DNA from: Caulobacteraceae bacterium
Lineage (GTDB): Bacteria; Pseudomonadota; Alphaproteobacteria; Caulobacterales; Caulobacteraceae
Direction of reading: 5' to 3'
Assembly: GCA_947475845.1 (NCBI GenBank)
Contig: CANJMO010000013.1
Coordinates: forward strand, 1-46,642
DNA: 46,642 nucleotides
In this document: positions 28,577 through 32,430 of the stretch, piece by piece
How positions within the stretch are numbered: position 1 is the first letter of the stretch
Layout of the letters: each line of letters opens with the position of its first letter
Position numbers and translations under genes: made by a program
The notes under the pieces: model-generated
The model's input: the letters and a program-made list of their open reading frames with translations, nothing else
The model's database searches: none
Told to the model about the DNA's origin: nothing

Positions 28577-29080
28577 ATGCTGGACATCGCACTGGAAACC
28601 CCAGTCAACCAACAAGCCACCCTTCATGACCTCGACCCGGCAGAACACCTGCTGGTCTGGGGCCTGCGCACCATCGCTGTCGGTCACAGCGACTGTCCCC
28701 TGCTGACCAAGACCTTCGTCAGCCGCTGCGGCCCGATGGGCGCCCCGGCCCTGCAGGCCTACTTCACCCTCGTCCAGTTGATCGGCATGTCCAGCCGCCG
28801 ACGCTTGCAGGTACATGTGCCCGGCTGCGCCTGCGTCAGCGTCGATGAGACCGCCGTGCTCGGCATCGTCTCGGCCGCCCAGGACGCGGTGCTGAAGGGC
28901 GACGACTCCCTGCTACGCATGCGCATCGGCTTCCTGACCCGTAGCGACTTCGCCGACACCCTGCGCTTCACCGCCCAGGCCCTGGCCAGGGCCCTGTCGG
29001 CGGGCGGACAAGCCCTGCCGGTGCGTATGGAAGCGGTCCCAGCGGCCTCAGCCGGCCTGCGCCTGGCGTCGGTGCATTAG
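28577..29080 (+). CDS. Hypothetical protein behind a Fur-like operator
   Basis: 167 residues; AGGAG lies six bases before the ATG. It has no signal peptide or membrane span. Notable are an early DLDPAEHLLVWGLRTIAVGHSDCPLL, the basic SRRRLQVHVPGCACVSVDE and a helical C-terminal half ending in an Ala-rich stretch. Five cysteines/histidines in PGCACV and HSDCP could bind metal. I recognise no family. The operator immediately upstream suggests iron-responsive expression. It is convergent with the aminotransferase; the stops overlap. Confidence 0.7.
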   Translation: MLDIALETPVNQQATLHDLDPAEHLLVWGLRTIAVGHSDCPLLTKTFVSRCGPMGAPALQAYFTLVQLIGMSSRRRLQVHVPGCACVSVDETAVLGIVSAAQDAVLKGDDSLLRMRIGFLTRSDFADTLRFTAQALARALSAGGQALPVRMEAVPAASAGLRLASVH

Positions 29081-30213
29081 AGCCTCGCCTGCGCCGCGAA
29101 CCACGGGATCATCCGCTCCAGCGCCTCGCGCACCTCCGCCGTCGACACCGCGAAGCTGAAGCGGATGAAATGGCCGCCTTCCACCGGATCGAAGTCCACG
29201 CCGGGCGCCGTGGCCACGCCGGTGGCGCGCAGCAGGCGCTCGCAGAAGGCCATGCTGTCCTGGGTCAGGTGGCCGATGTCGGCCCAGATGTAGAAGGCGC
29301 CGTCCGGCGGGGCGATCGAGCTCAGGCCCAGCGCCGGCAGGGCCTCCAGCATCAGGGCGCGATTGGCGCGGTAGACCTCGACATTCCCCTCCAGCTCCTC
29401 TCGGCAGTCCATCGCCGCCAGCCCGGCGTGCTGGCTCAGCGACGGCGCGGTCAGGAACATATTGGCTTTGTAGGCCCAGGCGTGGTTGACCTGATCGGCC
29501 GGCGTCACCAGCCAGCCCAAGCGCCAGCCGACCATGCTGTAGTATTTGGAGAAGCTGTTGACGATCAGGGCTGCGGGCTCGAACTGCAGCATGGTCGCCG
29601 CCGGCTCGACGTAGCTGAGGCCGTGGTAAATCTCGTCCGAGACGATGCGGATGCCGCGCGCGCGGCAGACCTTTGCGATCGCCTCCAGTTCGGCCGGGGC
29701 GATGATCGTGCCGGTGGGATTGGCCGGGCTGGCCAGGATCACGCCCTTGGGCGCCGGCTCGATGGCGGCCAGGGCGGCGGCGGTCATCTGAAAGCGCTCG
29801 GCGGGGCCGCACTCGATCTCCACCGGGATCATGCGTAGGGCCTTCAGCGCGTTGCGATAGGCGACGTAACCCGGCCGCGCGGTGGCAATGAGGTCGCCCG
29901 GCTCGAAGCTCGACGACAGGGCCAGGACCAGCGCCGGCGAAGCGCCGCAGGTCAGGGTCACGCGCTCGGGCTCCACCTGCACCTGATAGCGGTCGTGATA
30001 GTCGCGGGCGATGCGGGCTTTTAGCGCCGGACTTTCCCAATAGCCCAGGCCGTCGGTGTCCAGCACATGGTGGGCGCGGGCGATGGCGGCCTTAGGCGCC
30101 CCGGTGGAGGGCTGGCCGAACTCCATGTGGATGATCGAGCAGCCTTGCGTTTTCAGCTCATGAGCCAGGTGGCTGATGGCGATGGCGCGGAACGGATCGA
30201 TGGATTGCGACAT
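29077..30213 (-). CDS. Class I/II PLP-dependent aminotransferase
   Basis: 378 residues. It is a fold-type I aminotransferase: ASPANPTGTIIAP, SDEIYHGLSY and the PLP-Schiff base lysine in NSFSKYYSMVGWRLGW, then the C-terminal RFSFA arginine that binds the substrate carboxylate. The amino-acid substrate cannot be read; aspartate/alanine/aromatic-type enzymes share these motifs. Cytosolic, normal length. Upstream lies the 532-base gene-free region, so its promoter or leader may be in 30214-30400. Confidence 0.88.
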   Translation of the reverse strand: MSQSIDPFRAIAISHLAHELKTQGCSIIHMEFGQPSTGAPKAAIARAHHVLDTDGLGYWESPALKARIARDYHDRYQVQVEPERVTLTCGASPALVLALSSSFEPGDLIATARPGYVAYRNALKALRMIPVEIECGPAERFQMTAAALAAIEPAPKGVILASPANPTGTIIAPAELEAIAKVCRARGIRIVSDEIYHGLSYVEPAATMLQFEPAALIVNSFSKYYSMVGWRLGWLVTPADQVNHAWAYKANMFLTAPSLSQHAGLAAMDCREELEGNVEVYRANRALMLEALPALGLSSIAPPDGAFYIWADIGHLTQDSMAFCERLLRATGVATAPGVDFDPVEGGHFIRFSFAVSTAEVREALERMIPWFAAQARL

Positions 30214-30396
30214 CGCCGGAACGCTCCTTGGACTACCGCTGCACCCTCGTGGTTAGCCACTAAAGCGGACGCGCGCCATCCCCGAACACGGACTGATTTC
30301 GATACTGAAATTTTTTTATCCGATCCTTTGGGGGGGAGGCGAAATCGGCGGCGTCACCTGTATGAAAGCGCGTCATCCCCGTCGCGTTTTCGGTTC

Positions 30397-30510
30397 GTAA
30401 GGAGGACTCGCCGGTTTCCGGGGGGATTTCGGTGAGGCAATTCTACGAATGCAGCTCAGCCGGCTGCGAGGCGGTCCGCGCCGCGCCAGTGCGCGGACCG
30501 CCCTCCTTAC
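30397..30510. ncRNA. Candidate structured RNA (closed multi-helix element)
   Basis: GTAAGGAGG (30397-30405) is exactly complementary to CCTCCTTAC (30502-30510), so the ends pair. Inside, GGCGGTCCGCGC (30470-30481) pairs with GCGCGGACCGCC (30491-30502). Smaller hairpins CCGG-TTT-CCGG and CAGC...GCTG lie between. Closing helices of this kind are usual for structured ncRNAs or leader elements. The outer helix would hide an AGGAGG ribosome-site-like sequence. The strand is uncertain and no known family matches. Confidence 0.3.
30470..30502. repeat. Perfect 12-base-pair inverted repeat
   Basis: GGCGGTCCGCGC and GCGCGGACCGCC are separated by a 9-base loop. It is a very stable hairpin in either transcript direction, with no adjoining U run in either orientation. 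Confidence 0.75.
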
Positions 30511-30579
30511 TTCCAAAAAATTCCATAGATCTGTCAGCACCTTAGGCGCGCGCGTCCGCGCGCTCTCGCCGCGCGCAAG

Positions 30580-30611
30580 AAAAAACCCCCGGCCAAGGTG
30601 GCGGCCGGGGG
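30580..30611 (-). terminator. Orphan intrinsic terminator on the minus strand
   Basis: CCCCCGGCC (30586-30594) pairs with GGCCGGGGG (30603-30611), and A6 at 30580-30585 becomes U6 on a minus-strand transcript: a textbook rho-independent terminator. There is no minus-strand gene upstream of it; the next genes to the right are on the plus strand. It therefore implies an unannotated leftward transcript starting between 30612 and the ABC gene. Confidence 0.7.
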
Positions 30612-30745
30612 CTTGAGTGGAATAAAGGGAAGGATAAGAGAAGCGATGCTTCTGAGAGGAGATACGCGCCCCGATCTCCCACCCATCAGTTCTTCGTGAA
30701 AATATCGCAGGGCGGTACGGCCCACACTCCGCTATTCAGGATCCC
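30586..30745 (-). ncRNA. Candidate small RNA ending at the orphan terminator
   Basis: On the minus strand the segment contains a small hairpin (AGAAGC-ATC-GCTTCT, 30639-30653). Pyrimidine-rich, otherwise unpaired stretches (TCTCCTCTC and ATCCTTCCC) complementary to Shine-Dalgarno sequences flank it, and then comes the terminator. This layout resembles alphaproteobacterial trans-acting sRNAs with anti-SD loops. The 5' end is not determinable from sequence, so the right boundary is only a limit. Confidence 0.3.
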
Positions 30746-31668
<923 letters not shown>

Positions 31669-31669
<1 letters not shown>

Positions 31670-32430
31670 TGAACTGGCGGGCCATTCGCGCGATCTACAT
31701 GTTCGAGATGCATCGGACCTGGCGCACCCTGATGCAGAGCGTGCTGGCGCCGGTCGTCTCTACCTCGCTCTATTTCGTGGTGTTCGGCTCGGCCATCGGC
31801 TCGCGCATGACGTCGGTGGAAGGCATCGGCTACGGCTCGTTCATCGTGCCCGGCCTGATCATGATGTCGGTGCTGACCAATAGCGTGTCCAACGCCTCGT
31901 TCGGCATCTACTTCCCCAAGTTCGTCGGCACCATCTACGAGATCCTTTCGGCGCCGGTCTCCTATCTGGAGATCGTGCTGGGCTATGTCGGGGCGGCGGC
32001 CAGCAAGGCCATCATCCTCGGCCTGATCATCCTGGCCACGGCCGCCCTGCTGGTGCCGGTGCACATCGACCACCCGATCCTGATGATCCTGTTCCTGCTG
32101 CTCACGGCCCTGACCTTCAGCCTGTTCGGCTTCCTGATCGGCATCTGGGCGGACGGTTTCGAGAAACTGCAGATGATCCCGCTGCTGGTGATCACCCCGC
32201 TGTCGTTCCTCGGCGGCAGCTTCTATTCGCTGAGCGCCCTGCCCCCGTTCTGGCGGGCGCTGACCCTGTTCAATCCGCTGGTCTATCTGATCAGCGCGTT
32301 TCGCTGGAGCTTCTACGGCATCGCCGATGTGCCGGTCGGGATCAGTCTGGCGGCGACCGCGGTGTTCCTGGGGATCTGCCTGCTGGTGGTGCGCTGGATC
32401 TTCAAGACCGGCTACCAGCTGAAGACCTGA
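31669..32430 (+). CDS. ABC-2 type exporter, permease (YadH-like)
   Basis: 253 residues with six predicted membrane helices and the ABC-2 signature region ([36 protein letters not shown]...[17 protein letters not shown]). Its ATG shares one base with the ATPase stop (TGATG), so the two are co-translated. It forms a homodimeric channel energised by the upstream ATPase. The neighbouring convergent MarR gene is a possible regulator. Confidence 0.92.

Follow-up and report, generated by a model that had tools for sequence, protein, structure and literature searches.

The window, by which we mean the whole stretch of 46,642 nucleotides analysed here, is contig C13 of the 2.65-Mb draft genome (G000) of a Caulobacteraceae bacterium. 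An aminotransferase gene, whose best relatives are found in Caulobacter and Phenylobacterium, and an ABC exporter gene flank an intergenic gap of 532 bases (30214-30745); this setting, described in an earlier note made from the letters alone, is borne out by the coordinates and by the Pfam matches of both neighbours. Within the gap lies a conserved element on the strand of the ABC gene, from whose start it is separated by 235 bases. The features of the locus are as follows, with pairs counted as kept when they are retained in the homologous sequence of a second genome of the same genus (G002).

29077-30213, minus strand: aminotransferase class I/II (Pfam PF00155)
30360-30511, plus strand: conserved structured RNA of about 150 nt, its extent approximate, defined by identity to G002, the drop in the flanks and the kept fold
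30363-30392, plus strand: stem P1, whose loop is C-rich; all 11 pairs kept, one of them changed on both sides
30393-30402 with 30442-30450, plus strand: stem P2, all 9 pairs kept, one of them changed on both sides and two on one side
30405-30438, plus strand: stem P3, which P2 encloses and whose tip carries an invariant G-run; all 12 pairs kept, two of them changed on one side through G-U
30451-30467, plus strand: stem P4, 6 pairs, invariant in both species
30468-30505, plus strand: stem P5, which holds the 12-bp hairpin; all 16 pairs kept, one of them changed on both sides
30397-30405 with 30502-30510, plus strand: the closing helix first reported, present in the window, with 7 of 9 pairs in register in G002
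30577-30665, minus strand: candidate sRNA from a terminator scan, with a small hairpin, a pyrimidine stretch and an intrinsic terminator (stem 30614-30583)
30746-31669, plus strand: ABC exporter ATPase (Pfam PF00005)
31666-32430: ABC-2 permease gene, after the ABC ATPase (PF01061; NCBIfam PRK15066)

The earlier note had drawn a 114-base element closed by a 9-bp outer helix and containing a perfect 12-bp hairpin, and both inverted repeats are present without mismatch, at 30397-30405/30502-30510 and 30470-30481/30491-30502, respectively. Since the two helices share base 30502, they cannot both be complete simultaneously. Folded as RNA, the plus strand of 30397-30510 reaches −67 kcal/mol (z −5.26) and the minus strand −56.9 (z −3.73), values as low as which were found in none of 200 shuffles for either strand. 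For a background, overlapping stretches of 114 nt were taken from both strands of the window at a step of 15; among these 6204, and among the 2684 of them matched for GC content, the plus-strand fold is equalled by 21 and by none, and the minus-strand fold by 320 and 37, respectively. The stability of the plus-strand fold is therefore more than chance. The AGGAGG said to be sequestered in the outer helix is indeed paired in the ensemble of the window RNA. Inspection of the sequence revealed no ATG, GTG or TTG 5-10 nt on its 3' side, and the motif is thus not an evident ribosome-binding site.

Searches for relatives at the DNA level matched 11 of 60 relatives, with two real matches and nine short ones, and 15 of 199 family genomes, of which two were again real; the remaining matches, 13 in number (E 1.2e-5 to 8.4e-4), are confined to 24-43 bases in the GC-rich 3' part and were taken as chance. 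One homologue was thus found, in the same gap of G002 and between the same two flanking genes. The two sequences are 87% identical over 179 columns (30331-30508), and identity drops on both sides; at the 3' end, conservation stops with P5 and its pyrimidine tail, CUUACUU, which the terminator scan does not recognise as a terminator. A run of seven Gs (30331-30337; six in G002) lies 5' of P1 in a less conserved stretch and may be part of a promoter or of a longer 5' end. Further out, a perfect 12-nt inverted repeat (30265-30276/30548-30559, 271 nt apart) encloses the whole element, and it is probably a chance occurrence in GC-rich DNA, because the G002 alignment has different bases there. The third genome of the genus, G001, yielded no match to the element; as neither neighbouring gene was matched in it at the thresholds used and the genome is 79% complete, it is uninformative.

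Comparison of the two sequences yields a consensus fold of five stems, whose 54 pairs are without exception standard in either species. P1, P2 and P5 each contain one pair changed on both sides, three in all. These double changes call for caution: the consensus structure comes from the very sequences in which covariation is counted, and 65 of 500 letter shuffles attain as much covariation. P4, being invariant, is uninformative in this respect. Five further pairs are changed on one side, all via G-U on the plus strand, which on the minus strand would be A-C mismatches. Strand preference is also seen when alignment columns are shuffled within conservation classes (60 shuffles each): the consensus-fold z is −7.1 on the plus strand versus −3.3 on the minus strand for 30394-30513, and −3.8 versus +0.6 for 30354-30473. 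Toward the 3' end, the two strands score alike (−4.6 and −4.9 for 30434-30542), and across 30434-30557 the minus strand is as significant as the plus because P4 and P5 are near-palindromic. In a further control, the 18 substitutions and the 1-nt gap of the other species were placed randomly on like bases, in both directions. On the plus strand, only 10 of 2000 such mutants are as stably folded as the G002 RNA itself, versus 523 of 2000 on the minus strand; in the other direction, 3 and 44 of 2000, respectively, fold as well as the real sequence. The plus-strand fold is thus kept between two species beyond chance. The P1 loop and the P3 G-run could also form a kissing contact, the duplex energy being −11.5 kcal/mol for the loops of both species.

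This conserved fold is not the closed element as first drawn. The outer helix, in register, loses two of its nine pairs in G002 without compensation and shows no change on both sides. Moreover, the element begins about 35 nt further 5', with P1 at 30363, and P2 offers another conserved partner to the 5' strand of the outer helix, with which it overlaps. Of all pairings in the element, the outer helix that drew attention is the least conserved, an example of how a striking helix in one genome can mislead. G002 can nevertheless form the closing helix in a shifted register, which suggests that two folds compete. Over about 156 nt, the closed fold of the window is calculated at −83.2 and the fold with an unpaired tail at −79.1, while G002 folds best in the open form (−85.1) and, when the 5' strand of P2 is barred, reaches −83.2 with the tail paired in the shifted register. 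In these models either species can adopt the closed geometry or the fold that competes with it; what differs is the register of the closing helix and which of the two folds is the more stable. It is conceivable, although doubtful, that the RNA has two states, its pyrimidine tail being either locked by the purine strand or free while the 5' half of that strand closes P2. In that case the RNA would be a genus-specific switch outside any known class, its regulated output being the exposure of the CUCCUU-type tail. That a purine strand will easily find some register in which to pair with a pyrimidine tail weakens the argument for such a switch.

The part of the earlier proposal that does stand is a structured RNA of no named class, given the plus-strand fold kept in two species and the outcome of the Rfam comparison that the note had suggested. 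Rfam 15 at gathering threshold gave no match in the whole window, none of the 14 matches from a permissive scan of 30150-30800 came near its own threshold, and the G002 locus gave nothing for the element. A scan for tRNA and tmRNA found none. Protein coding is not supported: no reading frame is kept in register, as the 1-nt gap inside the element shifts any frame, stops differ, and certain frames stay open in just one of the two species. Nor is the element a repeat or mobile element, being present in a single copy in its genome; no match to it was found among plasmids or phages, and its 21-base core has no exact match in viral contigs. In the open literature, no paper was recognised as describing it, which does not establish its absence from print.

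A covariance model built from the window and G002 sequences (R1) matched two of 199 and two of 390 family genomes, in each case the two known sequences only. These genome searches used the stricter filters of Infernal and scored at most 15 (199 set) or 7 (390 set) candidates per genome, so R1 can miss weak relatives. A second place in the window's genome (17.6 bits, E 0.85) was taken as chance. Across 84 loci, R1 gave nine matches to E 5, namely the window, G002, the G002 gap again but on its opposite strand (27.7 bits, E 0.0016), and six weaker ones.

Considering the extent, strand and distribution of the conserved fold, we assign a probability of roughly one half to the reading that 30360-30511, approximately, encodes a genus-restricted plus-strand ncRNA of about 150 nt, with five stems ending in a GC-rich stem and a pyrimidine tail. 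It would probably be regulatory, a small RNA found in this group alone, and it is most likely free-standing. Such an RNA would be transcribed on its own from the plus strand and could act by base-pairing through its exposed conserved stretches, the C-rich loop of P1, the G-run at the tip of P3 and the CUCCUU-type tail, which may resemble the SD-like and anti-SD-like seeds of alphaproteobacterial sRNAs. This reading draws on two sequences only, and a consensus scan of 30150-30800, outside whose scope the alphaproteobacterial promoter types fall, recognised no promoter-like or terminator-like site on the plus strand.

The likeliest of the alternatives, though itself unlikely, is that the element forms the 5' portion of the mRNA of the ABC exporter operon and controls it in cis, for instance by switching between P2, with the tail free, and the closing helix, with the tail locked. 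Its position on the same strand 235 bases 5' of the ABC start, the lack of a recognised plus-strand terminator in between and the two competing folds in both species are all consistent with a leader. The ABC gene, however, occurs in 166 of the 199 family genomes and the element in two of 390, and conservation is poor between the element and the ABC gene. When R1 was run with filters off on 24 of 28 ABC orthologue loci, it returned 58 matches to E 10, which fall on either strand and for the most part not in the upstream gap; the best (19.6 bits, E 0.011) lies downstream of the gene, and none is convincing. Together, the distribution of gene and element and the end of conservation at P5 and its tail favour, without proving, a free-standing sRNA over an ABC leader. 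In several of these orthologue loci, weak R1 matches cluster on either strand about 770-930 bases past the end of the ABC ATPase match (L119 3183-3300, L132 3201-3340, L114 3174-3299 and others), and they are probably GC-rich hairpins after the permease gene. As to the gene pair itself, no aminotransferase was found within the fetched stretch of the 28 ABC loci. Among 80 aminotransferase loci (the best 80 of 294 confirmed relatives, some short upstream), one, L089, has an ABC relative alongside (72%), across a gap of about 80 nt.

It is improbable that the element works at the level of DNA, as a palindromic protein-binding site or a replication or recombination site, with the RNA fold as a by-product. 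The perfect 12-bp inverted repeat in P5 fits such a site, the double changes in P1 and P5 would keep DNA palindromes too, and the minus strand beats shuffles as well (z −3.7), but each of the five pairs changed on one side remains a pair only through G-U on the plus strand, the column-shuffle and mutant controls are asymmetric between strands, and P2 is a long-range pairing around P3 rather than a simple palindrome. Quite improbable is the view that shared ancestry and a GC-rich, chance-stable fold account for a non-functional sequence: the element is seen in two species only, and one of the three genus genomes, though incomplete, is without a match, yet conservation stands above that of the flanks and the fold is preserved beyond that of equally diverged mutants.

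Highly improbable is a sponge RNA for alphaR8 (SisA/MmgR-type) sRNAs resembling CrfA of Caulobacter crescentus, which is a sponge for alphaR8 sRNAs by way of a G/A-rich stem loop (PMC12559287): nine alphaR8 genes above the Rfam cut-off occur in the three genus genomes, two of them in that of the window, and the GGAGGA stretch against the core of one of these two beats 987 of 1000 random stretches (13 as good), but against the other 101 of 1000 are as good, and G002 is ordinary against its own three cores (334, 374 and 405 of 1000 as good), so that the conserved complementarity to the alphaR8 10-mer core expected of a CrfA-type sponge is lost in G002. The two alphaR8/suhB genes of the window's genome are at G000:C20:36714-36786 (L146) and G000:C9:22821-22893 (L149).

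With a free-standing small RNA as the preferred reading, the element can be set beside named sRNAs. It shares with CrfA (PMC12559287) the host family and the character of a structured sRNA with a purine-rich stretch possibly pairing with alphaR8 RNAs; compared by description, it differs in that this pairing is not kept in G002. ChvR of Caulobacter crescentus (PMC6237742) is likewise a lineage-specific multi-stem sRNA of the same bacterial family, called specific to C. crescentus; its locus, upstream of recF/gyrB, is different, and the likeness is one of description only. The 6S RNA (RF00013) is a compact structured RNA of similar size, but the element does not match RF00013, the genome's only match being its 6S gene, elsewhere at G000:C62 (56.2 bits). 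About 140 sRNAs have been counted in Caulobacter, most of them uncharacterised (PMC6237742); to this bacterial family, the present analysis adds a strand-assigned candidate sRNA whose fold has been checked against a sister species.

The minus-strand candidate sRNA at 30577-30665 resembles alphaR8/suhB/MmgR (RF00519) in its small hairpin, pyrimidine stretch and terminator, but its scores, 13.9 bits for the window and 22.4 for G002, fall short of the cut-off of 41. A model of this neighbour (R2) matched five of 199 genomes, two matches being real and three weak (27.3-30.5 bits); with two of the three weak ones in the terminator part alone, a wider family was rejected. In the G002 alignment of 30577-30665 the terminator and its U-tract are kept, and the 3' ends of the candidate and of the element point towards each other across about 70 bases.
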